Shown piece after piece: positions 18,323 to 37,456 of a DNA stretch of 51,006 nt. The position numbers were made by a program, and so were the translations under genes. Source of the DNA: Colwellia sp. (GTDB lineage: Bacteria; Pseudomonadota; Gammaproteobacteria; Enterobacterales; Alteromonadaceae); NCBI GenBank assembly GCA_022969215.1, contig JALJPA010000005.1:1-51006 (forward strand), read 5' to 3'. Each line of letters opens with the position of its first letter. Position 1 is the stretch's first letter. The notes below the pieces were generated by a model. It saw only the letters and a program-made list of their open reading frames with translations, was not told the DNA's origin and did no database searches.

Positions 18323-18397
18323 AGTTTATTCCTTTTGGCAGCTACAAATATCGGTATGTTTATAGCTTTAGTAAATTACCATTGTGTCTTTTAATGA

Positions 18398-19501: not shown

Positions 19502-19813
19502 AATTAATAAATACCAAGGGGATTAAACACGGCTCACTTAGTGAACATTGATTATTCTGTTTGGTATAACTCCTTATAAAACCCGTTCCTTAATGTGACG
19601 TCAGTTTGTATTTTTTAAGCGGGTTAAGATATAGGCAAATCCTGATTTAGCTTTAGTTCTAGTTCTAGCTTTAGTTTTGTAGGGGTTGCCCTATATGTGC
19701 ATTCCTAATTCCCCACGGTTTTATACCGGATACGCCGATACCACCATTGTTAATTAAAGTTCAAACTGGTTGCAATTCGTTGATTAACAGATTTGTAAAT
19801 AGAAGGGTAGCGT
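19502..19813. other. Promoter region of the first sulfatase gene
   Basis: This 312-base gap contains no gene. It holds the 7-4-7 inverted repeat at 19678-19695 and, 30 bases later, the block CCGGATACGCCGATA at 19726-19740, both shared with the TonB receptor promoter. A TTTTATA stretch just before the second block could serve as a -10 element. Confidence 0.55.
19678..19695 (+). promoter_or_regulatory. 7-4-7 inverted repeat upstream of sulfatase gene (site D)
   Basis: TGTAGGG-GTTG-CCCTATA: one mismatch from the perfect repeat seen upstream of the TonB receptor gene. It lies 119 bases before the sulfatase ATG, and the block CCGGATACGCCGATA follows after exactly 30 bases, as at the receptor promoter. 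Confidence 0.65.
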
Positions 19814-21529
19814 ATGAATGTGAATAAACTAAAATCGGCAGGTGTCGGGAGAATGGCATTGCTCTCTTTAATCATCATACCTGCATTGTCTGGTTGTCTT
19901 ACCGGTGAAGCGCAAGTTAAAAATACTGCTAGTGAAGGCTCAACGGAAGTGACTAGGCTTGATAGTCCAGTTGAGAATACAGCGACCCGTCCTAATATTC
20001 TTTTTATTATGTCTGATGATCACTCTGAGCGCGCTATAAGTGCTTATGGCAGTAAGCTAATTAATACCCCCAATATTGATCGCATCGCTAATGAAGGCGT
20101 ACTATTCAAAAACTCTTTTGTCGCTAACTCAATTTGTGGTCCATCACGTGCAGTAATGTTAACTGGCAAGCACAGTCATATTAATGGTTTTACCGATAAC
20201 CATAGTTCTTTTGATGGTACTCAACCGACCTATCCACAGTATCTACAAAAATCAGGTTATCAAACTGCCGTAGTGGGTAAATGGCATTTAAATTCTGAAC
20301 CTGTTGGTTTTGATTATTGGGAAATATTACGTGGTCAAGGCCACTACTATTCTCCTGAATTTATAACCAATAAACCAAACGAAATCACTGTTGTTAACGA
20401 AATTAAAGATAAACAAGGCAAGGTCATTAAAACTGAGTATGAAAATACCTACCTTGGTGCCTATGCCACGATAAAAACCGGCGACTTAGCATTAGATTTT
20501 TTGCAGAACAGAGATAAATCAAAGCCGTTTGCCCTGATTTATAACCATAAAGCGCCACACAGAAACTGGATGCCTAACGTTGATGATTTAGGTGTTATTG
20601 ATACCTCTGATCTACAGGTCCCCGATAATTTCTTTGATGATTATAAAAATCGTCCTGCGGCTAAATTGCAAGAGTTAGAAATAAATGACATGTACTTATC
20701 CTATGACTTGAAGTTAACCGAAGCTGATTACGCGGGTGACTTAGCTGATATATCTCAGGGGTGGGGTAAGCAGTGGCAAGCTTTATATGGCCGCATGACA
20801 CCAAGCCAGAAACAGAAATGGGATGTGTATTATCAAGACTTAAACAAAGAGTACCAAAATGTCAAAGGCGATGCTAAAGCCTTATTAGTATGGAAGTACC
20901 GTCGATATATGCATGACTATTTAAGTTCAATTTATGCCATGGATAAAGATATTGGTAGAGTTTTAGATTATTTAGATGCACAAGGTTTAGTAGAAAACAC
21001 CATAGTGGTTTACACCTCAGATCAAGGCTTTTATATCGGCGAACACGGTTGGTTTGATAAACGTTTTATGTACGAAGAAAGTATGAGAACACCTTTGGTT
21101 ATACGCTACCCAGCAAAAATTAAAGCCAAGCAAGTTATTACTGAAATGGTACAAAACCTTGACTACGCGCCGACATTTCTAGACTTTGCTGGCATAGATA
21201 TCCCTGCAGACATTCAAGGTATTTCATTAAAAGATAGACTCGTTGAGCAAAAGCCGATTGACCGTGACTCACTTTATTATCACTACTATGAAGGCATAAC
21301 AAAAGAGCACAAAGTGGCTAAACAAGAAGGAATAAGAACGGATACTCACAAATTGATTCACTTTAAAGATGTTGGTGTTGATCACTTTGAACTGTACGAC
21401 ATAGCTGCAGACCCAAGTGAAATGCATAACTTATACGGGACTGAGGCGATAAGTAAAATTCAAAGTGATTTACACAGACAGTTGGTGAAAGTTAAAGAAA
21501 AGTATCAAGTACCATTTACCAAAATGTAA
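19814..21529 (+). CDS. Sulfatase lipoprotein, probable N-acetylglucosamine-6-sulfatase type
   Basis: A 571-residue formylglycine sulfatase with a lipoprotein signal (PALSGC, Cys28). Residues PNILFIMSDDH (about 60-70) carry the metal-binding Asp pair. The catalytic cysteine to be converted to formylglycine is C108 in ICGPSRAVMLTGKHSHINGF, which fits the CxPSR rule. The stretch GKHSHINGFTDN and the TAVVGKWHL block resemble S1_11 GlcNAc-6-O-sulfatases known from gut Bacteroides. It would remove 6-sulfate from GlcNAc-containing glycans in the periplasm or at the outer membrane. It has the conserved two-block promoter and is followed by a solute-binding protein gene and a GH20-like gene. Confidence 0.88.
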   Translation: MNVNKLKSAGVGRMALLSLIIIPALSGCLTGEAQVKNTASEGSTEVTRLDSPVENTATRPNILFIMSDDHSERAISAYGSKLINTPNIDRIANEGVLFKNSFVANSICGPSRAVMLTGKHSHINGFTDNHSSFDGTQPTYPQYLQKSGYQTAVVGKWHLNSEPVGFDYWEILRGQGHYYSPEFITNKPNEITVVNEIKDKQGKVIKTEYENTYLGAYATIKTGDLALDFLQNRDKSKPFALIYNHKAPHRNWMPNVDDLGVIDTSDLQVPDNFFDDYKNRPAAKLQELEINDMYLSYDLKLTEADYAGDLADISQGWGKQWQALYGRMTPSQKQKWDVYYQDLNKEYQNVKGDAKALLVWKYRRYMHDYLSSIYAMDKDIGRVLDYLDAQGLVENTIVVYTSDQGFYIGEHGWFDKRFMYEESMRTPLVIRYPAKIKAKQVITEMVQNLDYAPTFLDFAGIDIPADIQGISLKDRLVEQKPIDRDSLYYHYYEGITKEHKVAKQEGIRTDTHKLIHFKDVGVDHFELYDIAADPSEMHNLYGTEAISKIQSDLHRQLVKVKEKYQVPFTKM

Positions 21530-21737
21530 GAGAAAACTATTTAAAGTTACCTATAGAAGAAGAGAACTTAAAAAGAGCGTTGAAAAGCACAGCATGATGG
21601 TCGGTATAACTTCCATCACAAGGTTTAGGCATTATTTGCCTCTTATGCTCTAGTATCACCTGACTGACATTGACTTGGTACTAGGGCTTTTTTATTAGAG
21701 CTGTTGGCTCAGCAGATAACGGATGAAGGGGAAGGTA

Positions 21738-22541
21738 ATGCTGGAGCAGTGGTTGTCAAAACCCCGGTTAATTATTGCCTTAATGCAGTTCTCTGCGTTG
21801 GCAATAACATCGGCATCCGCCAAACCCATTATTACTTTTACTACCCATGTTGAGTCTCAAAGCAAGGCTTATAAGTTTACTAATTTATTGCTTACCGAAG
21901 CCTTTAGCCGCATAGGCTATAAATTTTCAATGAAAACCCTGCCAGGTAAAAGGTCACTACATGAAGCAAATAAAGGCGTTTTTGATGGCGAGGCGCATCG
22001 TTTTTCCGGTTTAAATGATAATAATGAATTTCCAAACCTTATTAGGGTGCCAGAAATTCAACAAGTTATACAAAACGCTATGTTTTCAAAGCGAGTAAAA
22101 AACATAGCGATGCCTTGGCAAGAGTTAGCAAAGTACAGCGTTACAGTACCAAGAGGATCAGTATGGTTAACAGCAATGGCAAAACAATATGCAAAAGACG
22201 TTCAAGAGTTATCAAGCCCGGTGATAATGCTTAATTTTGTTAAACACGGCAGAGCTGATATAGCACTGATGTCTATAGAGGCCGCAGAATTATTGACCTC
22301 TAAAGAGTTCCAAGAAAGTGGTGTTAAGCAAATAGGTCCAGTGCTTTCGACTTTAGCCATTTACACCTATCTTCATAAAAAGCATAAAAAATTAGTGCCT
22401 AAGCTTGCTTTTGCCTTACATCAAATGAAGCTTGATGGTAGTTACCAACGTCTTATAAAGCAAAAAATCAGGCAAGTGAATTACAGTATGAATTTTAAAG
22501 AATCACTGAAGTATTGGTGCCTCCCAGCCAATATTAGATGA
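21738..22541 (+). CDS. Periplasmic solute-binding protein (family 3 type)
   Basis: About 267 residues with a signal peptide (IIALMQFSALAITSASA). The body resembles family 3 solute-binding proteins or the sensor domains derived from them: TTHVESQSKAYKFTNLLLTEAF, KTLPGKRSL, DGEAHRFSGL, VTVPRGSVWL and ADIALMSIEAAELL. No permease or ATPase genes are near. The start at 21738 has GGGGAAGG in front; ATG 21723 lacks one. The nearby histidine kinase carries a similar fold as its sensor, so the protein could take part in sensing, but that is a guess. A strong terminator follows. Confidence 0.7.
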   Translation: MLEQWLSKPRLIIALMQFSALAITSASAKPIITFTTHVESQSKAYKFTNLLLTEAFSRIGYKFSMKTLPGKRSLHEANKGVFDGEAHRFSGLNDNNEFPNLIRVPEIQQVIQNAMFSKRVKNIAMPWQELAKYSVTVPRGSVWLTAMAKQYAKDVQELSSPVIMLNFVKHGRADIALMSIEAAELLTSKEFQESGVKQIGPVLSTLAIYTYLHKKHKKLVPKLAFALHQMKLDGSYQRLIKQKIRQVNYSMNFKESLKYWCLPANIR

Positions 22542-22566
22542 GACGAGACGTCTCTATGTGGTGTTA

Positions 22567-22592
22567 AGGGGGAGGAAACTCCCCCTCTTTTT
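22567..22592 (+). terminator. Rho-independent terminator after the solute-binding protein gene
   Basis: Perfect 8-bp GC-rich stem AGGGGGAG / CTCCCCCT closed by a GAAA tetraloop and followed by CTTTTT. It ends the sulfatase/solute-binding protein transcript. Confidence 0.9.
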
Positions 22593-22795
22593 ATGTTCAG
22601 GATGAACGGTATGTCGCGGTGTCATGACGTCATAGGGATATGACTTATTAGACAATGCAGACGGTACAGGAGGTACCTTATTAGAGAATGCAGGATGCAT
22701 ATTCTCCTGATGACAAGGAGCGTGTATGTTCAGGCAAGCGTGCCAATGAATATCTAGTCAATAAACTAACTAATAAATATAATGTAGGTATCAAT

Positions 22796-23881
22796 ATGAA
22801 AAAATACTTTGGGCTAATGAGAAAATTGCTTGTTGCAGCTCTATTGCTGCTACCACCTAGTACTTGGGCTGTCACAGGAGCAGAGCAGTTACCTGTGCGC
22901 AGTTTTGCTATTGGTTCGCCAACACCAGACAAGTTAGATGACTTTCTACGTTTTATTGATGAAGACTTATCAAAAACCGCCGTTAATCAATTATTTCTTC
23001 GCATTAATTATAATTATCAATTTAAATCACATCCTGAACTGGCTGATAAAAATGCACTTAGCGAGCAGCAAGTCAAAAGCTTAGTTAACACAGCAGCTAA
23101 GTACAATATTGAAATTATCCCTATTATTAATTTGTTAGGACACCAATCTTGGAAGCAAGACAATATCCGCTCATTGCTTACCGTTTACCCAGAGTTTGAA
23201 GAGCCGCCGGGTAAAAAACTACTTGATAAAGACTTTTACACCCGTGCTTATTGTCCTAATCACCCCGAAGTTCATGACGTAGTGTTTGCGCTTGTTGATG
23301 AGTTGGTTGAAGTTTTTGGTGCAAAAGGTGTGCATGTAGGTATGGATGAGGTATTTATTCTCGGTGAGGAGGGCTGTTCGCGTTGTAAAGGTAAAGATAA
23401 AGCCGAACTTTTTGCCAGTGAAGTAAACCGTATTCAGGCACATTTAGCTAAAAATAAAATTGCCATGTATATCTGGGGGGATAGATTACTCGATGGTAAT
23501 ATCACTGGCATAGGCAAATGGGCAGCCTCAAAAAATGATACTTATAGAGCAATCGATTTAATTTCTAAAGAGGTCATTATATGTGATTGGCAATATAAGT
23601 TTGCCCCACCAACACCAGGTTATTTTGCCGTGAAAGGTTTTAATGTTATTAGTGCTTCATATCAAGTACCGAGCGTCGCAAAGTTCCAGCTTAACAATAT
23701 GATAGGTATGCGGGCTAACAGCCGAGATACCATTAAAAATCGCTTACAAGGCATCATGCATACTTACTGGGGCAGTTTTGAGAGTTTTTATCAATGTTAT
23801 CAGGGCAAATCATGTGAGAATGAGGTAAAGGCAGGTGCAGTGAAAACATTTATTAGTATCTATCCTAAAGAGAAAAGTTAA
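22796..23881 (+). CDS. GH20-like glycoside hydrolase
   Basis: A 361-residue secreted protein (signal KLLVAALLLLPPSTWA). The body is a TIM-barrel resembling the catalytic domain of GH20 hexosaminidases: YNIEIIPIINLLGHQSW, then the acidic pair D184-E185 in HVGMDEVFIL, then MYIWGDRLLDG and VIICDWQY. The usual GH20b N-terminal domain is absent, so the enzyme is shorter than classical hexosaminidases. A role in trimming N-acetylhexosamine from the same glycan as the sulfatase is likely; specificity cannot be read. The ATG at 22796 starts the signal peptide; an earlier in-frame ATG at 22688 would place 36 charged residues before it. A weak AGGT motif precedes. Confidence 0.75.
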   Translation: MKKYFGLMRKLLVAALLLLPPSTWAVTGAEQLPVRSFAIGSPTPDKLDDFLRFIDEDLSKTAVNQLFLRINYNYQFKSHPELADKNALSEQQVKSLVNTAAKYNIEIIPIINLLGHQSWKQDNIRSLLTVYPEFEEPPGKKLLDKDFYTRAYCPNHPEVHDVVFALVDELVEVFGAKGVHVGMDEVFILGEEGCSRCKGKDKAELFASEVNRIQAHLAKNKIAMYIWGDRLLDGNITGIGKWAASKNDTYRAIDLISKEVIICDWQYKFAPPTPGYFAVKGFNVISASYQVPSVAKFQLNNMIGMRANSRDTIKNRLQGIMHTYWGSFESFYQCYQGKSCENEVKAGAVKTFISIYPKEKS

Positions 23882-24427: not shown

Positions 24428-26041
24428 TCATAGCGGAATACGTACCAGTAATTGAACGCCTTGGTTTTTTTTGCTGTCTACTGTTAACTCACCACCTAAA
24501 GCTAAAGCGCGTTCACGCATGCCTTGCAAACCGTACGAACCTTCTTTGGTTGACCAACCCAGCTTTAATCCTTGGCCATTGTCAGAAATAAGCAGTAGTA
24601 GCTCTTTGCCTTGAAAGGTCAGAATTATTTCTACTTGACTGGCTTTGGCATGTTTGGCGATATTGGTTAAAGACTCTTGGGTAATGCGAAACAGTGCAAT
24701 TGATGCTTCTTCGCCAAGTTCTATTTGCGTTTCATGGGCGGTAACGTGACAATTAACCTCATGTCTAGATTTGAACTCATGTGCTAGCCATTCTATGGCG
24801 GCAACTAGACCTAAGTCCTCTAAAATACTGGGTCGTAGGTCGGTCATTATTTGTTTTGACGTTTGTGAAGCGCTTTTAACAAGTTGACTAAGCTCTTTAG
24901 ACTTAGCAATGCGCTGCTGTTCATCTTTACAGCTGCGTAGGCGTCTTATACCTATGGAGAGTGCTGTTAAGGTATGGCCTAGCTCATCATGTATTTCTCT
25001 GGCTAGTTTGGCTTTTTCTTCTTCGCGTACTTGTTGCATGTGCCGAGCTAGGTTACGTAATTCAGCTGTTCTTTCGACTACTTTTTCCGCTAGTTGGCGA
25101 TTCCAATAAGTAAACAGGCAGATGATCAATGTAACTAAAATGGTTACTGCCAGTAAAGATTGAATAACCAATTTAATATCAAGTTTCTTTTCAATTTGAA
25201 TATTAATCCACTTATCAAAGATTAAGCGTTTTTCTCGCTCAGAAATATCGGTAATGGCTTTTTCAATGATAGGGATAAGTGGTGCCATGTTTTTAGATGA
25301 GGCAAACATGATCTCGTAGTCATAAGGGGTGGTTGCTAATACTTTTAGACCGGTAATACCTAACTTACGCTGGTGATACTCGGCTGAAAAAATATTGTGA
25401 ATGAAAACATCGGCCTCATGATTATCCAGTGCTTGCAGTCCTTCAACCGTTGATTCGATAAAGGTGACTTCGACATGAGGATGATTTTTTGCTAAAAAAG
25501 CATGGGCGAAGGAGCCATATTGCACCGCTACTCGTTCGTTTTGCAGCGAGTCAAGTCCTTGAATAATTGCAGTATTTTGTCTGCCAAGCAGCACGACTGG
25601 CATCTTGATAATAGCCTTACTAAAGTTAACGTCCTTTTGTAAGTTGGTTGTTTTTGGCAAGTATGAAGCAAAATCTATTTGCCCCGACCTAAGCGCGTTA
25701 GCTAAGGCCATAAATTTAGGATAACGCTGGCTTGATCGTATTTCTATGCCTAACTTTTCACTGATTATTTTCAGGTAGTCAGAGGTTAATCCTTGGTGCT
25801 GACCGTAGTCATCGGTGTATTCAAATGGCTTGTGTATTTTACCACCTACCATACCGTGTATTATAACTTTATGTTGGCTGAGCCACCGTTGCTCTTCGGC
25901 GGTTAACCAGTTTTTTCGCCATTGCTTTGCCGTATCACTGGTTTCTTTTACTGGTTGACTTGCTTGGCAATTATTACAACAAACAAAAATACTGACAAAG
26001 AGCAAAGATAAAAGTAAAAACAATTGGGCTGGTTTTATCAT
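24428..26041 (-). CDS. Hybrid sensor: solute-binding domain plus NarL-type histidine kinase
   Basis: A 537-residue membrane sensor. It has a signal peptide (FLLLSLLFVSIFVC), a periplasmic family 3 solute-binding domain (about residues 50-290; HGMVGGKIHKPFEYTDDYGQ, GLTSDYLKIISEKLGIE), one transmembrane helix (about 300-320), a coiled linker (VVERTAELRNLARHMQQVREEE), the HisKA_3 phosphoacceptor (LAREIHDELGHTLTAL, His near 346) and an HATPase domain (SLTNIAKHAKAS, SDNGQGL, YGLQGMRERA). It lies 14 bases after the response regulator gene. The sensor probably binds a glycan breakdown product and activates the regulon; the ligand is not known. Confidence 0.88.
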   Translation of the reverse strand: MIKPAQLFLLLSLLFVSIFVCCNNCQASQPVKETSDTAKQWRKNWLTAEEQRWLSQHKVIIHGMVGGKIHKPFEYTDDYGQHQGLTSDYLKIISEKLGIEIRSSQRYPKFMALANALRSGQIDFASYLPKTTNLQKDVNFSKAIIKMPVVLLGRQNTAIIQGLDSLQNERVAVQYGSFAHAFLAKNHPHVEVTFIESTVEGLQALDNHEADVFIHNIFSAEYHQRKLGITGLKVLATTPYDYEIMFASSKNMAPLIPIIEKAITDISEREKRLIFDKWINIQIEKKLDIKLVIQSLLAVTILVTLIICLFTYWNRQLAEKVVERTAELRNLARHMQQVREEEKAKLAREIHDELGHTLTALSIGIRRLRSCKDEQQRIAKSKELSQLVKSASQTSKQIMTDLRPSILEDLGLVAAIEWLAHEFKSRHEVNCHVTAHETQIELGEEASIALFRITQESLTNIAKHAKASQVEIILTFQGKELLLLISDNGQGLKLGWSTKEGSYGLQGMRERALALGGELTVDSKKNQGVQLLVRIPL

Positions 26042-26055
26042 GGTCTACCTACTGC

Positions 26056-26700
26056 TTAGTTTATAAGGTCGTGACGATTGGCATATAAAACTATTTCGGC
26101 ATTATTGCTAAAACTCATTTTTTGTAAAATACGGGCGCGGTGAGTGGTAATGGTTTTGGCGCTAACGTTGAGCTTATCGGCAATGATATTTGGCCCTGAG
26201 CCTACGGCTAGCTCTAAAAACACTTGGTATTCACGGTCTGAAAGGGTTTCGTGCAAACAATCCATTTTATCATTTTGCACGCCTCGGCTAATATGGTTGG
26301 CTAATAACTCGGCTACTTCTGCGCTTAAATAACGCTTGCCCTTAGCTGCTATTTTAACCGCTTTTAGGATTTCTTCATCATCAGCATCTTTTGACAAATA
26401 ACCCGCTGCGCCACCATGAATAAGCCTTACCGCGTATTGAGATTCAGGATAGGTGCTTAAAATAAGCACAGGTAATTTTGCTTTATCGGCTTTAATTAAT
26501 TTGAGTAACTCAACACCACTTCTATCGGGTAAACGAATGTCTAGTAGTACCAAATCCCAATCTTGTTGGCGGATCATCCTTAAGGCCGAAGCAGCGTCTG
26601 CGGCTTCACTTATGTCAACGGGAAAATCTGCTTCTTGCAGTATTTGTCTAATGCCTGCTCTGACAACAGAATGATCATCAACTAATAATATTCTCAACAT
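26056..26700 (-). CDS. NarL/FixJ-family response regulator
   Basis: A 214-residue regulator with an N-terminal receiver (MLRILLVDDHSVVRAG, acidic pair DD; phosphoacceptor Asp in LVLLDIRLPD; Lys in GYLSKDADDEE) and a C-terminal LuxR-type helix-turn-helix (LSDREYQVFLELAVG, IADKLNVSAKTITTHRARILQKM). The ATG at 26700 has GGAG eight bases upstream; a TTG eight codons earlier is less likely. It is the first gene of a two-gene unit with the histidine kinase and is divergent from the TonB receptor gene. It is the best local candidate for the activator binding the 7-4-7 repeats. Confidence 0.92.
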   Translation of the reverse strand: MLRILLVDDHSVVRAGIRQILQEADFPVDISEAADAASALRMIRQQDWDLVLLDIRLPDRSGVELLKLIKADKAKLPVLILSTYPESQYAVRLIHGGAAGYLSKDADDEEILKAVKIAAKGKRYLSAEVAELLANHISRGVQNDKMDCLHETLSDREYQVFLELAVGSGPNIIADKLNVSAKTITTHRARILQKMSFSNNAEIVLYANRHDLIN

Positions 26701-27194
26701 ATCTACTACTCCAACTTGATACAACGAATAAGTTTTTATTGGCCTATTTACAGGTTTTAGCTAGTAAGTGCCATTTAAGGTGCGTACTTTACCTTTAATG
26801 GACATTTATTTGAGGGTTGTAGAAACTAGCTTATATAACTTAGTTTATTATATACAGGCTTGTAAATAGATATCTTTGTATTGTAAATTATTTACCTGCC
26901 TGTTTTTAAAGGGGTATAGGGTAATCCCTATAGCGTGTTACTAAAAACCTTACTGCTTGATGCCGGATACGCCGATAGAAAGAGTTTTTCTCAAAGCGCA
27001 TTGTATAAACAGAAATCAAAAGAACGCATTAAGAAGTTCAACTTACGATTTCGAAAGGAAGGCCAAACGGAGTTTGATGCAAATGGTAATAATAAGCCAA
27101 AATCGGCAATGTTGATTTATGGATATTACCTTGCGTAAGTACAGTTATGTACAAGGTTTTCAACAAACAAAACATGCTTGGGAATAATACTAAT
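26701..27194. other. Divergent promoter region between response regulator and TonB receptor genes
   Basis: A 494-base gap. It holds the perfect 7-4-7 repeat (26915-26932) and the block CCGGATACGCCGATA (26963-26977). An open frame at 26935-27138 overlaps these sites, has no ribosome binding site and no recognisable product, and is not called. The long leader from these sites to the receptor gene (over 200 bases) holds nothing else that can be named. Confidence 0.55.
26915..26932 (+). promoter_or_regulatory. Perfect 7-4-7 inverted repeat upstream of the TonB receptor (site A)
   Basis: TATAGGG-TAAT-CCCTATA, a perfect inverted repeat. Exactly 30 bases later comes CCGGATACGCCGATA (26963-26977), the same block at the same distance as upstream of the sulfatase gene. 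If a -10 element lies just before that block, the repeat is centred near -42 to -45, the usual place of an activator that replaces the -35 element. Confidence 0.7.
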
Positions 27195-29948
27195 ATGAAT
27201 AATAATATAATAAATTGTAGAAAAAATAGAGTCGCTTCAGCAGTAACTATTGCGTTAATGCCAATTGTCTTAAGTGCCAGTTTAACGGCTAGTTTTAGTG
27301 CTTTTTCTGCTGAAAGCAGTGACGAAGCTTCAATAGCGAAAAAGAAAAATAAAGAAATTGAAGTGATCGAAGTCACCAGTTATCGCGATAGTATCACCAG
27401 TTCTTTAAATGCCAAACGTAATGCCAACTCAGTGGTTGATTCAATTACTGCAGATGATATTGGCAGTTTCCCTGACTCTAATGTTGCAGAGTCATTACAA
27501 CGTATTCCTGGTATCTCTATTACTCGCAGTTTAAGCGGTGATGGTGAAAGTGTCAGTATTCGTGGTTTCGGGCCAGGAAAAAACTTATCTTTAGTTAATG
27601 GTCAACAGCTTAGTAGTAGCTCATTTAACTTAGAAAATTCACTGAGCCGAGGATTTAACTATGGTCTGTTACCTTCAACCATAGTGCAACGTGCCGAAGT
27701 GCATAAATCTACCGAGGCTTATCTGCCTGAAGGTGGTGTTGGTGGTACGATAAATATTGTTACCCGTAAACCTTTAGCTCAAAATAAAGAACTGCTTGTG
27801 GTCGCTTCAGGCTCTGCTAGTTACAATACCCTATCAGAAGATACTGCACCAAAAGCCTCGGCATTAGTTAGTTGGAAACTGAATGATAAATTCGGCGCTT
27901 TAGTCAGTCTTGATTACTCAAATGTTGATACTAGGCGTGATGCAGTAGAAGTCTTAAATTATAAAAAACAAAGTTTTGTTACCGCAGATGGCAGTGAGTA
28001 CAACGATGTTTTAGTGCCCGGTGCTGTTGGTTCTGCTAACTTTAATCAAAACCGTGAACGCAAAACGGCCATGGTTAGTTTGCAGTATCAGCCAAGTGAT
28101 GCTATCGATATGAACTTTAATTACCTGACCAGCAATATGGAAGGTGATAACTTAAATACTAACCTGATCTCACTAAATCATGCCGGTTATTACAAACACG
28201 GCAAGCCAGGTACTGTGCTTGATGCAACACTGAATGAAACAACCAATACCATTACTAGTATTGATTATGCAGCACCTAAAAATGGTCGCGCTGGTTGGGC
28301 GTCGGCAATTCGCCGTGATGCAAAGTTGGCAAGTGAATCTTTTCAATATGATATTAAATGGTTAGGCGATAATTTAACCTTAAAAGCTGCTCTCGGTACT
28401 TCTAATTCTGCTGGTGGTGCTGGCGTTATTAAAAGCTCTAAAATTGCTTTGAGTGGTCCAACGACGGTGAGTATTGATGATGGCATTGGTTATGTACAAT
28501 ATCCGGATGTTAATACTGATGATTTAGGTAGCGCTACGGCTTGGGCTCATGGTTATGCAAGAAAAACCAGTGACAATGACAATAGTTATATTGCTTTAGA
28601 TGGCGAGTATTATTTAGATGATAACTTTATAACTTCAGTTATGTTGGGTGTGCGTTATACCGAAGCAACACAAGAGCAAAGGCACATTATTGCCAGTAAT
28701 GATTACCATAAAGATACCGCTGCCCATGACAGCCTACGTGGTCCTGCGAGTAATATTGGTGTGCTTAGCTCAACACCGGATGATTTTCTTAGTGGCCTTG
28801 GCGGTAACGCTATATCCAGCTATCAATTTATAGACCCTAGTTTACTCGATGGTTACGGTATTGTTTATACCGAACGTGCCCATCAAGGTAACTCTTATGA
28901 TGTTACTGAGGAAATAGCATCGGTTTATGCACAAGCAAACTTTGAACATGATTTTGATAACATGCTACTTCGAGGTAACTTTGGTTTACGTTACAGTGAC
29001 CAAAATACTGAAACATTTAACTTTTCAACTGATTTAAATTGGAAAAACCCCGACGATTTAGAAAAAATTAATAACTTTGATTTTGACTTTGTTCAAATAG
29101 GTGAATCAAGCGGGTTCTTGCCTAGCGTTAACTTAATCTTAGATTTACAAAACGATTGGGTAGTACGTGGTGCCTATTCAACGGTAATTTCTCGCCCAGC
29201 TTATGAACAATTGGCCCAGCAACTATCGGTAAAAGATATTAAGGAAGAAGATCAAATTGATGGTGGCGCTACCCGTACCGCCAAAAAAGGTAATGCTGAC
29301 TTAGAAGCCTTTGAGGCCGATAAATATGACCTCTCTACTGAGTGGTATTACAGTGAAGGTTCAAGTGTCAGTATCGGTCTTTTTTATTATGATATTAAAA
29401 CCTTTGTTACCACCGAAGAATCGCTAGAAGATTTATTGGGTGATGGTGACTTATGGATTGTGACCCAACCAGTAAATAAAGACGGTGGCTCTGTTAAAGG
29501 TGTTGAAGTTGCGCTTTCTCATCAATTTACAAGTTTACCGGCACCGTTTGATGGCTTAGGTATTCAAGCAAACTATACTTATGTTGATAGCGATACCGAA
29601 GAAACCAACCCGTTAACCGGTGAGAAATTACCTTTAGCTGGCTTGTCTGAATCAACCTATAACGCAGTACTTTTCTATAGTACAGACCAATGGGATGCGC
29701 GTTTATCATATAACTATCGCGATGCGTATTATGAGCAAATTCAATTTACCTACCCTCGATTTAATGACTCAATTGCTCGTTTAACAGCGAAAGTTAAATA
29801 TAGCTTTGATAGTGGTTTAAGTTTATATCTGCAAGGCACTAACTTAACGGACCAACAAAACAAGCGTTATATTGGTGATGAATCTCGTCCATACCAAACA
29901 AGTGAAGTAGGGCGTAATGTTGTTGCCGGTTTTGACTTTGTCTTTTAG
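27195..29948 (+). CDS. TonB-dependent outer-membrane receptor
   Basis: A receptor of about 917 residues. It has a signal peptide (VTIALMPIVLSASLTASFSAFS), a TonB-box-like stretch (EIEVIEVTSYR), a plug domain (ADDIGSFPDSNVAESLQRIPGISI; SVSIRGFGPGKNLSLVNGQQ) and a long beta-barrel ending in AGFDFVF with the terminal Phe. It belongs to the type common in polysaccharide-using Alteromonadales and Xanthomonadales. It should import oligosaccharides released by the neighbouring enzymes. ATG 27195 is preferred because GGGA lies about 12 bases upstream and the signal follows soon; ATGs at 27147 and 27174 are possible. A strong terminator follows. Confidence 0.93.
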   Translation: MNNNIINCRKNRVASAVTIALMPIVLSASLTASFSAFSAESSDEASIAKKKNKEIEVIEVTSYRDSITSSLNAKRNANSVVDSITADDIGSFPDSNVAESLQRIPGISITRSLSGDGESVSIRGFGPGKNLSLVNGQQLSSSSFNLENSLSRGFNYGLLPSTIVQRAEVHKSTEAYLPEGGVGGTINIVTRKPLAQNKELLVVASGSASYNTLSEDTAPKASALVSWKLNDKFGALVSLDYSNVDTRRDAVEVLNYKKQSFVTADGSEYNDVLVPGAVGSANFNQNRERKTAMVSLQYQPSDAIDMNFNYLTSNMEGDNLNTNLISLNHAGYYKHGKPGTVLDATLNETTNTITSIDYAAPKNGRAGWASAIRRDAKLASESFQYDIKWLGDNLTLKAALGTSNSAGGAGVIKSSKIALSGPTTVSIDDGIGYVQYPDVNTDDLGSATAWAHGYARKTSDNDNSYIALDGEYYLDDNFITSVMLGVRYTEATQEQRHIIASNDYHKDTAAHDSLRGPASNIGVLSSTPDDFLSGLGGNAISSYQFIDPSLLDGYGIVYTERAHQGNSYDVTEEIASVYAQANFEHDFDNMLLRGNFGLRYSDQNTETFNFSTDLNWKNPDDLEKINNFDFDFVQIGESSGFLPSVNLILDLQNDWVVRGAYSTVISRPAYEQLAQQLSVKDIKEEDQIDGGATRTAKKGNADLEAFEADKYDLSTEWYYSEGSSVSIGLFYYDIKTFVTTEESLEDLLGDGDLWIVTQPVNKDGGSVKGVEVALSHQFTSLPAPFDGLGIQANYTYVDSDTEETNPLTGEKLPLAGLSESTYNAVLFYSTDQWDARLSYNYRDAYYEQIQFTYPRFNDSIARLTAKVKYSFDSGLSLYLQGTNLTDQQNKRYIGDESRPYQTSEVGRNVVAGFDFVF

Positions 29949-29975
29949 GTAGAACCATTCAGTTTCAATTGCTAT

Positions 29976-30008
29976 AAGCCATTGATTAAATTTAATCAAT
30001 GGCTTTTT
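29976..30008 (+). terminator. Terminator after the TonB receptor gene
   Basis: Two 15-base arms, AAGCCATTGATTAAA and TTTAATCAATGGCTT, form a perfect hairpin that runs into a T run. It separates the receptor from the LacI-type regulator gene. Confidence 0.88.
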
Positions 30009-30046
30009 AGGTTGTTGGTTAGTAATACTAAGACAAGGTAGAAGCT

Positions 30047-31051
30047 ATGAGAGTAACTATGATGGATGTTGCACAGTTAGCTGAAGTTTCATCTAAAACT
30101 GTATCTCGGGTCATTAATAAAGAACAATATGTTTGCCCATTCAAAAAAGAAAGAGTGTGGCAAGCAATAAAAGAATTAAATTACCACCCCAGTGTGACCG
30201 CGCGTCAACTGTGTGGTGCTCCCTCATCAATAGGCTTTGTTTATGATAATCCAAATAGTCATTACATTATTGAATGTCAAAAGGGTATCTTAGAGATATG
30301 TTTGCAAGAGGGCTTGGAGTTATTTATTCGTCCTTGCCAAGCCTCATCGACCACGATCTGTGAAGACATTATCGCTATGGTTCGGCGCAGTCAGATGGCG
30401 GGTTTAGTGTTAACGCCACCTTTGTCCGAAATGCCAACGTTATTGACCAGGCTTGATGAAGAAAATATTTGTTACATTAAGATAATTTCAGGTAAAGCCT
30501 GTGATGATGATCGCACCATTTGCATAAATGATTTTAAAGCTGCAGCTGATCTTACCCAATACTTAATTGATTTAGGTCATAAAGATATTGCCTTTATCCA
30601 GGGAGATAAAGCTCATGGTTCAGCATTTCAAAGATTTTCTGGTTATTTAGCAAAACTTAATAAAAATAAAATATGTCCTAATGAAGATTTTATTTTAGAT
30701 GGAATATTTTCCTTTGAATCTGGTGTCGAAGGGGCTTTTCAGTTATTAACGGGTGATAATAAACCCACGGCTATATTTGCTTGTAACGACGAAATTGCTG
30801 CTGGATGCTTGTTTACCGCAGGTTTTATGGGTATATCAGTACCAGAGCAACTGTCTATTGTTGGCTTTGAAGATAGCCCTTTTTCACGACAAACCCTACC
30901 AGGCTTGACTACCGCGAAGCAGTCAACCGAGCTAGTAGCAAAAACTGCGACACAATTATTAATTTCCCTAATCCGAAAAAATACTAAACCTCAATCTAAA
31001 GTATTTACTCCTGAGTTGGTTGTTAGGGATTCTGCTTGCCCAGTTAACTGA
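30047..31051 (+). CDS. LacI-family transcriptional regulator
   Basis: A 334-residue LacI/GalR-type regulator. The helix-turn-helix is at residues 3-25 (TMMDVAQLAEVSSKTVSRVINK), followed by the hinge (LNYHPSVTARQL) and a periplasmic-binding-like effector domain (DLGHKDIAFIQGD, ACNDEIAAGC, IVGFEDSPFSRQTLPGLTT). An AAGGTAG ribosome binding site precedes the ATG. It lies between the TonB receptor and GH20 genes and probably responds to an amino sugar or oligosaccharide of this locus. No palindrome typical of LacI operators with clear repetition was found nearby, so its targets are unknown. Confidence 0.9.
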   Translation: MRVTMMDVAQLAEVSSKTVSRVINKEQYVCPFKKERVWQAIKELNYHPSVTARQLCGAPSSIGFVYDNPNSHYIIECQKGILEICLQEGLELFIRPCQASSTTICEDIIAMVRRSQMAGLVLTPPLSEMPTLLTRLDEENICYIKIISGKACDDDRTICINDFKAAADLTQYLIDLGHKDIAFIQGDKAHGSAFQRFSGYLAKLNKNKICPNEDFILDGIFSFESGVEGAFQLLTGDNKPTAIFACNDEIAAGCLFTAGFMGISVPEQLSIVGFEDSPFSRQTLPGLTTAKQSTELVAKTATQLLISLIRKNTKPQSKVFTPELVVRDSACPVN

Positions 31052-31184
31052 ATTATTAGTTAGCACTTTTATCATTGATTAACTTTAAAAGTGCGAAATT
31101 CAAGCTTGCTTAAATCATTCGTTTTAGTATGCAGAGAAGCAATGAGTATTGTTGTTATGAAAAACGGGTAAGTACTAGTCAGCA

Positions 31185-31207
31185 GATAAGGAATCCCCTA
31201 TATAGGG
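31185..31207 (+). promoter_or_regulatory. 7-4-7 type site upstream of the GH20 gene (site B)
   Basis: GATAAGG-AATC-CCCTATA (31185-31202), overlapping a perfect 12-bp palindrome CCCTATATAGGG (31196-31207). At the same 30-base distance as in sites A and D comes AACGATGCGCGAGCA, which keeps the core GATRCGC. An AATAAT stretch precedes that core. The GH20 ATG lies 92 bases after the site. Confidence 0.6.
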
Positions 31208-31293
31208 CAAAGTATTACTGTGATTCAATAATAACGATGCGCGAGCAATTTTAATATTGCTTTCACGAAAACTACTGGTAAGGTTAAAAATAT

Positions 31294-32994
31294 ATGCAAA
31301 TCTCTTATAAAGCATTCATTGTTTTACTGTTAAGTCTATTGGTGCTCTCTAGCTGTGATGATTATGGTAACAACAAAAAAAACATTAATAGTAATCAGAA
31401 TAAGCTTTCAACAGTAACAACATCTACGGCTAAGCTAAGCAGCGTAGATTACAGCAATATCATTCCCCTTCCTGTGGAAGCACAACAAGGCACTGGTTAT
31501 TTTGTTTTAGCTAATACCAAGCAAATATTCATTAGTGCTAGCCAACCTAAGTTAATTGCCGTAGCGAATCAGCTAACAACAGCAATATCGAGCGTTGTTG
31601 AACAGTCAATTGAAATTAATGTTATCAGCGGACAGAAGCTGCTTGATATAAATTTATCAAAATTTTCTGCTGAAAAAAATCAAATTTCTTTATTGGTAGA
31701 TAGTGAATTAGCCGGTGGCCCAGAAGCTTATTCAATGGTTATTGAAGAACAGTTGGTGAGCATTGTCGGTGGCTCTGAGGCAGGTGTATTTCGAGGAATT
31801 CAAACCCTGAAACAGCTTTTACCCTTGGCAGATGATAATAAACTAGCGGTTCTTCAAACCGGTATTATTAATGACTACCCTCGTTTTGAGCATCGGGGTT
31901 TTATGTTAGATGTAGCAAGACATTTTTATACTGTAGATGAAGTGAAACAAGTAATTGATTACCTTGCCGCTTATAAATATAACGTCTTTCATTTTCACTT
32001 AACTGACGACCAAGGCTGGCGCATTGAAATTCCAAGTTGGCCAAAACTGACCGAAGTTGGCAGTAACTCTGCTGTTGGTCAACAAAGCTGTGAAAATTGT
32101 TTTTATAGCTTAGATGAATACCAAGAAATTGTTCAATATGCTGATGAACGTTTTATTACCTTAATTCCTGAAATTGATGTACCCGGTCATGTTAAAGCGG
32201 CGCTTGCTGCTTATCCGGATGAGCTTTATTGCGATGGCGATAAACCCGATTGGCCTTATACCGGCGTTGAAGTGCGTATTAGCTCGTTGTGTTTTTCTAA
32301 CCCTAAAATTTATGACTTCTTTGAAGATGTTGTTAGCGAAGTTGCTAAAAGAACGACCGGACAATATATCCATGTTGGCGGTGATGAAACCCCTAAATGG
32401 GTTAAACATCAAGACTATGCTGACTTTATGTTAAAAGCCAGTGACATCATTAGCAAACATGGCAAAACTCTGATTGGCTGGACTAATGATCTAGGCAGTG
32501 TTGATGGCTTAAGTAGTGATGTAGTAGGTCAGCATTGGAATAACAAAAATCACTGCTGTGAAAACACCGTAAATATGGCTAAAAGTGGTAATAAAATTGT
32601 TATGTCACCCGCCAATAAAACGTACTTAGATCTTAAATACGATAAAGACGCGCCAATTGGTTTGCATTGGGCAGGGTACAACAGTATTGAAAACTCTTAC
32701 AACTGGGATCCTGAGTTGATGATTGAAGGACTTACCGCTAAAAATATTATTGGTGTTGAAGCGGCGCTTTGGGGAGAAACAATTAAATCAATGAGTGATG
32801 CTCAATACATGATATTCCCTCGCTTATTAAGCTTGTCTGAAGTGGCGTGGTCACCACAAGAGCAACGCTCATGGTCAGCTTTTAGTAAACGATTAACACA
32901 GCAACTTGAAACTTTTGAGCAACAAGGTCTTAATTATCGACCGCTTGCAAAAGAAGTACTATTAAGCAAGCCAGCTACCAAGGGAAAAAGTTAA
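31294..32994 (+). CDS. GH20 beta-N-acetylhexosaminidase lipoprotein
   Basis: A 566-residue secreted GH20 enzyme. The signal ends in a lipobox (LLVLSSC), followed by a low-complexity Asn/Lys/Ser linker, the GH20b domain (about residues 50-190) and the TIM-barrel: HRGFMLDVARHFYTVDEVKQ, FHFHLTDDQGWRIEI, IDVPGHVKAAL, and the catalytic D364-E365 in HVGGDETP. Late tryptophans in GVEAALWGE and SLSEVAWSP also fit. It releases terminal GlcNAc or GalNAc from oligosaccharides, probably in the periplasm or at the surface. It has the shared promoter pattern, so it is likely induced together with the receptor and the first sulfatase. Confidence 0.95.
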   Translation: MQISYKAFIVLLLSLLVLSSCDDYGNNKKNINSNQNKLSTVTTSTAKLSSVDYSNIIPLPVEAQQGTGYFVLANTKQIFISASQPKLIAVANQLTTAISSVVEQSIEINVISGQKLLDINLSKFSAEKNQISLLVDSELAGGPEAYSMVIEEQLVSIVGGSEAGVFRGIQTLKQLLPLADDNKLAVLQTGIINDYPRFEHRGFMLDVARHFYTVDEVKQVIDYLAAYKYNVFHFHLTDDQGWRIEIPSWPKLTEVGSNSAVGQQSCENCFYSLDEYQEIVQYADERFITLIPEIDVPGHVKAALAAYPDELYCDGDKPDWPYTGVEVRISSLCFSNPKIYDFFEDVVSEVAKRTTGQYIHVGGDETPKWVKHQDYADFMLKASDIISKHGKTLIGWTNDLGSVDGLSSDVVGQHWNNKNHCCENTVNMAKSGNKIVMSPANKTYLDLKYDKDAPIGLHWAGYNSIENSYNWDPELMIEGLTAKNIIGVEAALWGETIKSMSDAQYMIFPRLLSLSEVAWSPQEQRSWSAFSKRLTQQLETFEQQGLNYRPLAKEVLLSKPATKGKS

Positions 32995-33718: not shown

Positions 33719-35476
33719 ATGAATATACAAAGAACTATTTTAGCATTCTTATTGTTGGTGTTAACGCTAAGCACTTCTGCTTGTGGCGGCGGCGAAAAAA
33801 AATCAAATGATGACACCGCCACGGGTGTAGATGTGACTATCAGTGATAAACCCATCACCAATGCTGTTGATGGTCAGGCATATACTTACCGCGCTGATTT
33901 TGGTGACTGGAATAATAATACCGACGTTACGTTTACCATTAAAAACAAACCTGACTGGTTAAGCTTTAATGAAAAAAAAGGCGTTATTAGCGGTATTGCC
34001 AAGTCATTTATCAATATTCATAAAAATGTTGAATATGTCTATTTTGATATTGAAATTATTGCCACACTCAACGGCCAAGTGAAAAGCACTAAGCCGTTTA
34101 ACATCGTTATCACCAATGAAGCGGGTAAAATAGTCACTAAGCACATCGTCTTTAGTGCGACCTATGCAGACAGTGAAACGAGCATTAACCAAGCGGATAT
34201 CGACAAACATTATAACAGTGTTGCAGCTTATGTTAACTACTTGTCTAACGGCAAACACCAAGTCAAATTTGATGTTGTTCATTTAGCGCCGATGACAGTG
34301 TCGCGTGAAAAAATGAGAACTATCTCACTAAGTCAAACGGCTTTAAATTATGTTTATCTAGAGAATGCGGCTGATTTATCCAGAAACTGTGATCTAACGG
34401 TGATGATGCCCTTAGCACGCATTTGGTATGATGAGAATAAAGAAGGTCAATCAGTTAGCGCCGAGCCAGATTTTTCATTTACCGAAAAATTTGGCGATAC
34501 CAATACATGTCAATCTTTCTTCATAGGTACATTGGCTACCCATTACCTCAACATTCCTGAGAATATAAACATCGACGATTACCATAGCATGATCTTTACC
34601 TTCTATGATGACGAGATTTGGCACCAGCCTTTTGCTAGCAATTTCGACCAGGGCTTTAACGTTAAGCAAGGTGATAAAGGGCTAGACGGCTATCATTACG
34701 CCACAACGAATATGAATGACGATGATTTTAATGAAGCGCTTTATCTCGACATAGATTCTACCGATAGGACGTGGGCTGAACTCGAGATACTCCGTGACAA
34801 TCCCAAGATTATGTCTGAGTTCTATACTCAAGCGCAGGTAGCACTGACATCAAGTGAAAAGAGCACGGCACATGAGATTTTTCACCTACTGGGGGTTTTG
34901 AATCATGACGATGGCTTAACTCGATATGGTCTTGATAACAGTATTTTTAAAACGTTAGAAGCAAACTTGCAACAAGGTTATTGGGGGGCTGTTAATTATG
35001 GTGATCTATTTAGTATTATGGGCTCAAAAGCTTTTAGTATTGGTTTAGCACCATCATCACGAGAGCTTTTGGGTTGGGTAGATAGTAATAATATTCACAC
35101 TATTGATAGCAGCAGTGAGGCCGTCATTATTAATGACATGTACAGTACACAAGGGGCAACCCTTGCTAAAGTAAAAGTCGAAGGTGGTTATTTATACCTG
35201 AGTTATCATGCAGGTAATAGTTATGATGAAAGCCTTAAACATCCATTATTAGTCGAGCATAGCCAAGGTATTCAAATTCACTATACTGATGAAAGAACCC
35301 CAGAAAAAATGTCTGAGTATCCAACAAGCTCAACATTGCTAGACCCAGATGAAGATCTATTCAATGACAACTACGCGCTAAAAGCCGGTGAAAGTTACAC
35401 TATTTTTAATGTTGAAATAACCACTGTTTCGGTTGACGGCGTACAAGCGATTTTTGATGTGAAGTATATCAATTAG
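33719..35476 (+). CDS. Secreted lipoprotein with Ig-like domain and metzincin-like HExxH peptidase domain
   Basis: A 585-residue lipoprotein (LSTSAC lipobox). Residues about 38-140 resemble an Ig/cadherin-like putative-Ig domain (ITNAVDGQAYTYRADFGDW, PDWLSFNEKKGVISGI). A larger domain follows with H385-E-I-F-H389-L-L-G392-V-L-N-H396, a zinc-binding pattern close to metzincins (HExxHxxGxxH) but with one extra residue before the last histidine. A Met-turn-like SIMG with Met434 comes later, as in M6/M11-type peptidases. No known peptidase family can be named with confidence. Placed among sulfatases and hexosaminidases, it may cut the protein part of a glycoprotein or proteoglycan. Confidence 0.75.
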   Translation: MNIQRTILAFLLLVLTLSTSACGGGEKKSNDDTATGVDVTISDKPITNAVDGQAYTYRADFGDWNNNTDVTFTIKNKPDWLSFNEKKGVISGIAKSFINIHKNVEYVYFDIEIIATLNGQVKSTKPFNIVITNEAGKIVTKHIVFSATYADSETSINQADIDKHYNSVAAYVNYLSNGKHQVKFDVVHLAPMTVSREKMRTISLSQTALNYVYLENAADLSRNCDLTVMMPLARIWYDENKEGQSVSAEPDFSFTEKFGDTNTCQSFFIGTLATHYLNIPENINIDDYHSMIFTFYDDEIWHQPFASNFDQGFNVKQGDKGLDGYHYATTNMNDDDFNEALYLDIDSTDRTWAELEILRDNPKIMSEFYTQAQVALTSSEKSTAHEIFHLLGVLNHDDGLTRYGLDNSIFKTLEANLQQGYWGAVNYGDLFSIMGSKAFSIGLAPSSRELLGWVDSNNIHTIDSSSEAVIINDMYSTQGATLAKVKVEGGYLYLSYHAGNSYDESLKHPLLVEHSQGIQIHYTDERTPEKMSEYPTSSTLLDPDEDLFNDNYALKAGESYTIFNVEITTVSVDGVQAIFDVKYIN

Positions 35477-35615
35477 TAAATATTTTCACCGCAATGAGTT
35501 CATGAATACCAATCATCACCTTTAGCCGATTTATACTTTAGGTCAAAAAGCGTAATTAATATGATAAGTTTTTAATTTGGTGATGAGCCACAGGGGAACA
35601 AATAGCGCAATTAAC

Positions 35616-35650
35616 AAAAGGGTAAGTTATTAATATAACTTGCCCTTTTT
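35616..35650. terminator. Bidirectional terminator between convergent genes
   Basis: 15-base arms AAAAGGGTAAGTTAT and ATAACTTGCCCTTTT pair with one T-G wobble across a 4-base loop. T runs are present on both strands, which suits the convergent metallopeptidase and GH18 genes. Confidence 0.85.
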
Positions 35651-35684
35651 AGTTTTAATAGCTTTTGTTAATAGCTCTGTTTTA

Positions 35685-37343
35685 TTAATTTACCTGAGTA
35701 TTTAAGCCAATTGTTTCAGCCGCTTTTACTAAGATTGATTTAGCATGTGATGGCGAAACATCTTGCCCTTGATCCCAAATCATGACGCCTTTTAAGCCAG
35801 TTTTTTTAGCGTAATTAGCCTTATTCTCTATGGTGTCTAAACCATTAAAATAGTGTGTTACGCCATTGTGCACTACTGAGTCAACGGATGTTGGTGGGTT
35901 ATAGGTATCAACAATGATGTTATACATTAATGAATCAGGTGTTGATTTTGTCGCTGGTCTTGAATAAGCAGGCAGGCCAATCACAAGTTTTTCTTTACTT
36001 AAGCCATTATTTGTCCAGCTATTCACTTTTGCTTTTAACGTTGAAAGTGGGTATTGCGTACCTGCAGAAATTACTCGCCCATAAGTCATCAGTTGCACAA
36101 AGTTTGTATATTGCTCGAATGCAGCAGCGTTAGCATAGCCATTAGCAGCAATGGTTACTGATATTTTCAAGTCTGTGCCAACAAAACTAGCCTGCATTTC
36201 TTGCAAAAATAAGCGGTAATGGTTGGCATTAACATTACCGTGGTAATGTTCCCAATCGATGTCTACGCCATTAAGATTATATTGCAATAAAAAGTCTTTG
36301 ATATTAGCAATTAAATTAGCGCGCGCAATTGGTGAGCTTAAGGCTTCATCTAAGTAATCTGACTGTACCCAACCACCCACAGTAACGAACAATTGTGTAT
36401 TGTAATTTTCTCGCCAACTATTGAGTAAAGCGATATCTGTCGGTACTTTACCAAGGTTATCAATATGGGTGAAAGTGCCGTCACTTTTAACGCGACCTAG
36501 TTCGCCATCACTGTCGGTGCCAAAAGAGAAATAGAATATATGACTTAAGTGTTCAGCCGTTTCAGGCGTAATGCGACCTAAGGCATAATAAGGAAAGTAA
36601 CTACCCACAAATTGTCTTTGATACGCTAAGCCGTCAACACTACCAACGTAGGCGGTATTTGTATTAGCGGCTACTTGGTTAGCGCTATTATAATCTTCAA
36701 AGTCCCAGTTTAAAGCCAGGCTTGGCGCATTAAGGTGACTGGCATCAAGCGTTTTATCCTGCCACTGACTAATAGTGTTAGCTGACAAAGCGCTATTCCA
36801 AACTCTGACGTTATCTATCAAACCGTCATATTTACTGCTACCGACAGTAAAATTAGCTGTAGTATCAGGAGCTTCTCCTGATGGCGAGCCTTTCCAACCG
36901 TTAGCGAGTGAAAGTGGCTTTCCATCGAGGTATAAGGTGATGGTATTCGCTGAATTTTCATCGTATACCATGGCAATGTTGTACCACTGCTTTACTGATA
37001 AAACTGGCGCTGGTGTGTACCTAAAGGTATTACTGCCATTGGCAACAATGCAATATAATTTGCCTTGATGCATTTGCAGTACTATACGATGAGTTGAATT
37101 GTCTATTTGACCTAATATACTGGTCCAGTTAGATAATTCATTGAAATAAACTTGTGTTTCAAAGGTGAACTCAGTTGCTGAGTTTAATTCTGCTACGTTT
37201 TGTGTTGTTATAATTTTTTTGTCTAATTGGCCGTAAAATCCTTTTTGAGCGAAGCCGTGTGTACTTGCTAATGAACTTACTAAAGCAATGAAAAAAATAT
37301 ATTTATTAAATAATTTATTTTCTTTTTTTTGTTGTTTTAACAT
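35685..37343 (-). CDS. Secreted LamG-GH18 enzyme (chitinase or endo-hexosaminidase type)
   Basis: A 552-residue secreted protein. The signal ends near SLASTHGFA. Residues about 45-220 form a LamG/concanavalin-like domain (ATEFTFETQVYF, QWYNIAMVYDE, GLIDNVRVWNSALS), which often binds sugars. The GH18 barrel follows: FVTVGGW (319-325), the catalytic N358-G-V-D361-I-D363-W-E365, QLMTYGR and VMIWDQGQDV. The catalytic Glu and the assisting Asp are present, while the first Asp of the DxxDxDxE motif is Asn. The ATG at 37343 has AAGGA upstream and starts the signal. It could act on chitin or on HexNAc-containing glycans. Confidence 0.9.
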   Translation of the reverse strand: MLKQQKKENKLFNKYIFFIALVSSLASTHGFAQKGFYGQLDKKIITTQNVAELNSATEFTFETQVYFNELSNWTSILGQIDNSTHRIVLQMHQGKLYCIVANGSNTFRYTPAPVLSVKQWYNIAMVYDENSANTITLYLDGKPLSLANGWKGSPSGEAPDTTANFTVGSSKYDGLIDNVRVWNSALSANTISQWQDKTLDASHLNAPSLALNWDFEDYNSANQVAANTNTAYVGSVDGLAYQRQFVGSYFPYYALGRITPETAEHLSHIFYFSFGTDSDGELGRVKSDGTFTHIDNLGKVPTDIALLNSWRENYNTQLFVTVGGWVQSDYLDEALSSPIARANLIANIKDFLLQYNLNGVDIDWEHYHGNVNANHYRLFLQEMQASFVGTDLKISVTIAANGYANAAAFEQYTNFVQLMTYGRVISAGTQYPLSTLKAKVNSWTNNGLSKEKLVIGLPAYSRPATKSTPDSLMYNIIVDTYNPPTSVDSVVHNGVTHYFNGLDTIENKANYAKKTGLKGVMIWDQGQDVSPSHAKSILVKAAETIGLNTQVN

Positions 37344-37438
37344 TTTATTTTCCTTCCAATTAGTTTGTGCAGATAAGGTTCGCATAGATGTTGCTCACTT
37401 ATAGCCAATTCATATTGTCTTTTTTTCACACAATAACC

Positions 37439-37456
37439 TATAAGGTAATCCCTATT
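37439..37456. promoter_or_regulatory. 7-4-7 type site between GH18 and sulfatase genes (site C)
   Basis: TATAAGG-TAAT-CCCTATT. It shares the 12-mer GGTAATCCCTAT with site A. It lies 96 bases from the GH18 start on the minus strand and about 270 bases from the sulfatase start on the plus strand. The second block seen at sites A and D is not clear here. Confidence 0.55.

Follow-up and report, generated by a model that had tools for sequence, protein, structure and literature searches.

We find that four intergenic sites of one design, a 7-base-pair (bp) inverted repeat around a 4-bp spacer (7-4-7), lie in the promoter regions of a sulfatase and hexosaminidase locus of Colwellia sp. on contig JALJPA010000005.1 (assembly GCA_022969215.1), whose 51,006 nucleotides are the window analysed here, and comparison with related genomes makes it likely that this palindrome is the operator of a local two-component system, which would activate the cluster via a phosphorylated NarL/FixJ-type response regulator. 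An earlier note on this DNA had read the sites as those of a dedicated regulator, with the response regulator as first candidate and a LacI-family protein as second, a ranking that is supported by the clustering of the sites, their conservation across genera and their co-occurrence with the response regulator. The letters and positions of the four sites are exactly as given then, and their consensus is TRTARGG-N4-CCCTATA:

19678-19695, plus strand: TGTAGGG-GTTG-CCCTATA, 118 bp before the ATG of the first sulfatase (S1)
26915-26932, no strand: TATAGGG-TAAT-CCCTATA, a perfect palindrome, in the divergent region between the response regulator and a TonB receptor
31185-31202, plus strand: GATAAGG-AATC-CCCTATA, upstream of GH20
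37439-37456, no strand: TATAAGG-TAAT-CCCTATT, in the divergent region between GH18 and the second sulfatase

None of the four falls within a listed open reading frame (ORF; at least 100 amino acids), all stand in promoter regions near genes that Pfam places in one glycan-degrading system, and the half-site CCCTATA has, as had been claimed, no other intergenic copy in the window, the three remaining copies (7016, 38523 and 47150) all being inside ORFs. For the palindrome searches mismatches were counted from TATAGGGNNNNCCCTATA; the window is one whole contig (C380) of a genome (G000) of 5.04 Mb in 434 contigs, 87% complete. At up to two mismatches the window holds four matches, compared with a mean of 0.11 and never three or more in 150 first-order Markov (Markov-1) resamples; at up to three mismatches the count is still four, which is not striking given that 1.96 are expected on average and 13 of 100 shuffles reach four. 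Genome-wide, nine places match at up to two mismatches, and instead of scattering at random they concentrate in this locus, with four of the nine within 18 kb, inside the 17.8-kb locus stretch. The Poisson probability of four matches in a stretch this long is about 4e-8 if the stretch is taken as fixed, a value that overstates the case because the stretch was picked for its sites. As the genome total about equals that of a backward control pattern (eight), it is the clustering and not the total that is significant.

The genes of the locus were annotated with a Pfam scan that covered 20 window proteins out of 37 listed ORFs:

19814-21529, plus strand: sulfatase S1 (Sulfatase and SGSH_C, Pfam), proposed target
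22688: a further GH20 (Pfam)
24428-26041, minus strand: sensor histidine kinase with a periplasmic SBP_bac_3 (BvgS-like) domain, HisKA_3 and HATPase_c
26056-26700, minus strand: NarL/FixJ-family response regulator (receiver and LuxR-type helix-turn-helix, HTH), proposed binder of the palindrome
27147-29948, plus strand: TonB-dependent receptor (TIGR01782 subfamily), proposed target
30047-31051, plus strand: LacI-family regulator, judged not to bind the palindrome
31294-32994, plus strand: GH20 beta-hexosaminidase (Pfam), proposed target
35685-37385, minus strand: GH18 and laminin-G protein (Pfam), proposed target
37729-39351, plus strand: second sulfatase (Pfam), proposed target
40514: third sulfatase (S3; Pfam)

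The regulator, with its receiver and LuxR-type HTH, is thus encoded beside a HisKA_3 kinase (PF00072, PF00196, PF07730 and PF02518); the sensor part of this kinase matches BvgS in PDB, and in NCBIfam the best match of its kinase part is UhpB, at E 2.9e-42 and with 145 bits where the cut-off is 408. We place the start of the regulator at the ATG at 26700 and not at the listed TTG (26724), since in another genus its orthologue has an ORF beginning at the matching ATG. The true start of the receptor may be a later ATG.

The sites travel together with the response regulator. In searches of sampled groups of the family and the order, which took per genome at most 10 (family) or 7 (order) candidates for the regulator, at most three for the receptor and at most four for the sulfatase, orthologues of the regulator at 85% identity or above were found in three of 295 family genomes, namely the window's own, a second one of the same genus (G222; within the genus, two of 39) and one of another genus (G003). 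Some match at E 1e-30 was found in 240 of the 295, the next best after the orthologues being 41% identical, and in the order sample, which need not include G222 and G003, the window's own regulator stood alone among 394 genomes at E 1e-50. Between G000 and G003 the regulator is identical at 186 of 217 residues and its HTH at 58 of 62 (by eye); the kinase is 62% identical and the other shared locus proteins 52-77%. G003 keeps the regulator, the kinase, the receptor, three sulfatases, both GH20, GH18 and the gene at 21723 in a rearranged order, GH18 and the second sulfatase no longer being divergent neighbours, on a 34-kb contig that ends 2.3 kb past the receptor. In G222 the second sulfatase (L045, G222:C17, about 229948-230511) is cut short, with 189 of 540 residues aligned, and GH18 had no match within the 40 kb examined.

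Some match to the receptor at E 1e-60 occurs in 191 of the 295 family genomes, the closest being those of G222 (99%), G003 (about 61-62%) and G194 (45%), followed by receptors of at most 36% identity, and S1 at E 1e-180 occurs in four of the 295, of which G194 is the one without the regulator. In G194 the receptors (L049/L050, G194:C22:83601-91833) adjoin ORFs that by eye read like an extracytoplasmic function (ECF) sigma factor and FecR (83601 and 84206), genes of which none was seen near the receptor among the 20 scanned proteins of the window. From this arrangement it seems that a related locus may be under the control of an ECF sigma/anti-sigma pair instead. Upstream of S1 in G194 there is neither palindrome nor second element (E2, below), and the best palindrome score in its 36 kb is 12.9, where 0.75 scores of 12 or above are expected. 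The 41%-identical regulator, in G017, has chemotaxis-like neighbours and no receptor/sulfatase locus was recognised around it (by eye). A contig scan with two short peptide patterns gave three loci; a distant Massilia receptor (26%) among them was set aside.

The palindrome itself is conserved in both relatives. In G222 it is kept before the receptor (TGTAGGGTAATCCCTATA), S1 (AGTAGGGCTTTCCCTATA) and GH20. For G003, matches were ranked with a matrix for which only the four sites of the window were used, and promoter p values were derived from 2000 Markov-1 resamples for each upstream region (27-300 bp, lengths set by hand), uncorrected for the 21 regions tested, 17 in G003 and four in G194. The GH20 site of G003, GATAGGGGTAGCCCTATA, is the best match in the 34 kb (score 21.2) and was reached by none of the 2000 resamples, and the receptor site, TGTAGGGTTTTCCCTCTT, which was read ungapped as a gapped alignment splits it, is second best (15.2, p 0.002). 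The third match (14.3) lies inside an ORF, and the next two (12.5 and 12.2) lie between genes. At S1 of G003 the top score in the 300 bp belongs to TGTAGGGGGAACCTGTAC. Of the expectation in the earlier note that orthologous genes in related species would carry the site, the part concerning the TonB receptor, GH20 and, more weakly, S1 was borne out in the other genus, and the part concerning GH18 and the second sulfatase was not. A shared putative operator in several promoters is conserved together with a NarL/FixJ regulator, in two lineages only.

Two of the four promoters carry a second element, E2, that was absent from the earlier note:

19726-19740, plus strand: E2, CCGGATACGCCGATA, S1 promoter, 30 bp downstream of the palindrome
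26963-26977, plus strand: E2, CCGGATACGCCGATA, TonB receptor promoter, 30 bp downstream of the palindrome

These are the only exact copies in G000, where three further places at two mismatches are within control level, and E2 is found exactly at both the S1 and the receptor promoters of G222. In G003 the counterparts are CCGCATCCGCTGATG at S1, exactly 30 bp from TGTAGGGGGAACCTGTAC (p 0.015), and GCGGGTACGCCTATA, 31 bp from the receptor palindrome and reached by none of 2000 resamples. Among 395 family genomes, three have a composite pattern of palindrome and E2, at five places in all, each of them a receptor or S1 promoter; the backward control gave none. Since these same promoters supplied the composite, and since its GTAGGG excludes the receptor promoter of the window itself, only its absence elsewhere is informative. 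Between E2 and the start of the receptor the leader (27020-27100) contains ACTTACGATTTCGAAAGGAAGG, which resembles AGTTACGGTTTTGATAGGAAGG of G003, the first letters being offset by the alignment.

E2 stands at a set distance from the palindrome and most likely represents either the core promoter or a further contact, of the same regulator or perhaps of another protein. Promoter scans listed no consensus sigma-70 promoter at E2, which is expected because the promoter would be activator-dependent. The sigma-28 -10 box is GCCGATAA; E2 was rejected as such a box, with no TAAA at the right distance, and as a LacI operator, its halves forming no palindrome (both by eye). On the minus strand E2 reads TATCGGC-G-TATCCGG, each heptamer agreeing with TATAGGG at five of seven positions, and the corresponding heptamer in the receptor promoter of G003, TATAGGC, agrees at six of seven. 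It is possible, though we regard it as doubtful, that the receptor and S1 promoters form a two-part operator for one response regulator, with the strong palindrome and a weak direct-repeat E2 30 bp downstream, and that the palindrome-only GH20 and GH18 promoters answer differently.

Several results weigh against the assignment of the palindrome to this two-component system. The system was found in three genomes, which represent only two independent lineages because two of the three are near-identical in the regulator. Total matches at up to two mismatches are at or near those of the backward control (9 and 8 in G000, 7 and 9 in G222, 7 and 4 in G003), and five of nine, four of seven and six of seven, respectively, lie outside the locus, 10 of these 15 within ORFs. 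In G222 no site of the 37439 type was seen at the cut-short second sulfatase. Most of the 17 G003 upstream regions are without a convincing site: the S1 palindrome is not significant alone (p 0.21), and the best upstream scores have p 0.039 at GH18, for an unlike sequence, and p 0.15 at the second sulfatase. Three G003 regions where no site was expected also reach low values, those of an unassigned gene at 29990 (p 0.0035), S3 (p 0.0165) and the sulfatase at 13863 (p 0.037), uncorrected for 21 tests.

A palindrome-binding regulator need not be local, and the sites could instead be bound by a regulator encoded outside this locus. We consider this unlikely: the sites cluster here, the composite of palindrome and E2 was confined, in the genomes searched, to the three with the local response regulator, and targets elsewhere would be expected of a general regulator. 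The other G000 matches did not qualify as members of a regulon, three of the five lying inside ORFs and the neighbours, judged by eye from ORF starts, not being glycan-like.

It is highly improbable that the palindrome is bound by the LacI-family protein (30047-31051), acting as a repressor that responds to sugar, even though its gene lies within the locus between two of the sites, the protein is 98% identical in G222 and LacI operators are described as mostly even palindromes of 16-22 bp (PMC4052901). Of the 1303 LacI regulators studied there, 1173 have an even palindrome with a central CG. By contrast, the spacers of the four sites (GTTG, TAAT, AATC and TAAT) have no CG centre. Moreover, the 34-kb G003 locus keeps sites and has no LacI match, although a gene beyond the contig edge would be missed, and the best LacI in the whole G003 genome is 52-53% identical. 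Since G222 carries, in addition to the true orthologue, a paralogue with which this protein shares 72% identity, we take it to be the orthologue of the paralogue, and G003 therefore appears to be without the locus LacI, so that among genomes with sites the response regulator is present in three of three and the LacI orthologue in two of three. LacI is thus disfavoured by the missing central CG and the missing G003 orthologue, and the response regulator is favoured by its co-occurrence with the sites, its divergent position at the perfect site, its near-unchanged HTH and the type of palindrome.

CG-centred palindromes occur in the intergenic DNA of the window at 2429 (perfect) and at 10084 and 37693 (seven of eight pairs each). 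The one at 37693-37708, AACTTGTCGACATGTT, stands just before the second sulfatase, and chance matches of this quality are not uncommon; it is possible that it serves as the operator of the locus LacI, for which it is a better guess than the 7-4-7 sites. The perfect one at 2429-2444, GGGTAAACGTTTACCC, lies between two genes, at 1312-2319 and at 2445, the first of which encodes a protein similar to the locus LacI (26% identity), and it looks like a classical LacI operator.

Finally, we give next to no credence to the palindromes being terminators, a repeat family or chance occurrences with no regulatory role: GGG/CCC arms could form hairpins and genome-wide matches are at control level, but no terminator-like site was listed on the palindrome in the two of four site regions scanned, all four palindromes are upstream of genes, and the receptor and GH20 sites are kept in position and sequence across genera.

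With the palindrome as operator of the local two-component system, we infer the following course of events. The periplasmic BvgS-like domain of the kinase would sense a ligand, probably a glycan breakdown product, and the kinase would phosphorylate the NarL/FixJ-type response regulator, whose phosphorylated dimer would bind the palindrome with one half-site per subunit. The bound regulator would activate, rather than repress, the TonB receptor, S1, GH20 and GH18/second sulfatase genes and, from the divergent 26915 site, probably its own operon too. Should the GATAGA/TATAGA that closes E2 be the -10 box, the centre of the palindrome would lie near -62, a classical position for a class I activator.

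The proposed circuit has counterparts among known systems. NreC of the staphylococcal NreBC system is a LuxR-type response regulator with a HisKA_3 kinase. Its consensus is reportedly TAGGG-N4-CCCTA (Fedtke et al. 2002). A core of this form is present in full at two of the four window sites (19678 and 26915), the other two having TAAGG on one side, and would be identical to that of NreC if the reported consensus is right. Phosphorylated NreC is described as binding a GC-rich palindrome (PMC8139620, PMC5694512), and Bacillus NreC as binding a predicted site more tightly when phosphorylated (PMC9918477). Whereas NreBC is concerned with oxygen/nitrate sensing and nitrate respiration, the Colwellia locus combines a periplasmic SBP_bac_3 BvgS-like sensor with glycan uptake and sulfatase targets in a gammaproteobacterium. 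ComA of Bacillus is likewise a LuxR-type response regulator. The consensus given for its box, TTGCGGNNNNCCGCAA, is an inverted repeat with a 4-bp spacer (PMC3793909), a feature shared with the sites of the locus, although half-site letters, host phylum and targets differ. A palindrome with an N4 spacer fits LuxR-type response regulators, as the ComA box and the NreC palindrome illustrate. The kinase part is nearest UhpB, but the locus regulator matches another family better than UhpA. UhpBA provides local activation of a transporter gene, and UhpB is not known to have a solute-binding-protein (SBP)-type sensor. The hybrid two-component systems of Bacteroidetes supply a sensor kinase per glycan locus with a TonB-type receptor, but there kinase, receiver and AraC HTH form one protein, whereas the Colwellia locus has separate genes and a LuxR-type HTH.

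Three further sequences of the window were considered. The earlier note had counted a "weaker relative" of the sites before the third sulfatase:

41990-42007, minus strand: weak candidate, TATCAGGAAATCCTCATT, before the third sulfatase (S3), position weight matrix (PWM) score 9.1

Its membership is not supported, the PWM score comparing with 18.7-22.7 for the four sites and being at chance level, as 10 places in the window, the four included, score 9 or above when about 6.4 are expected by chance. Its G222 counterpart scores 11.2, and the sequence upstream of the G003 S3 orthologue (the uncorrected p 0.0165 above) is different; the 41990 site may be a distant member. In the GH20 promoter an alternative dyad, CCCTATATAGGG (31196-31207), was rejected, being kept in neither G222 nor G003. 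A 26-bp sequence, TGTGWCTTTTANNGNTAATGTACACA, occurs at 18383-18408 and 44710-44735, flanking the locus, as the only two copies in G000 at up to three mismatches. Each lies upstream of a minus-strand gene, the first 61 bp from that of a zinc dehydrogenase (start at 18322) and the second 71 bp from that of a major facilitator superfamily transporter (start at 44639). In G222 a single copy with two mismatches is present, on the sulfatase side. A second regulon may have its operator in this repeat.

In the open-licence literature searched we found neither the 7-4-7 site described nor any two-component control of such a locus in Colwellia. To our knowledge, regulators of polysaccharide loci in marine Gammaproteobacteria have seldom been matched to DNA sites, and these searches brought up no such case. 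By analogy the circuit appears to be of a familiar kind, its sites resembling those of NreC and ComA. If the two-part operator is real, the receptor and the first enzyme would be switched on in a different order or at a different threshold from the rest. With kinase/response-regulator pair, palindrome and target promoters named together, the regulon is directly testable, and the named circuit offers a route to the inducing sulfated glycan.

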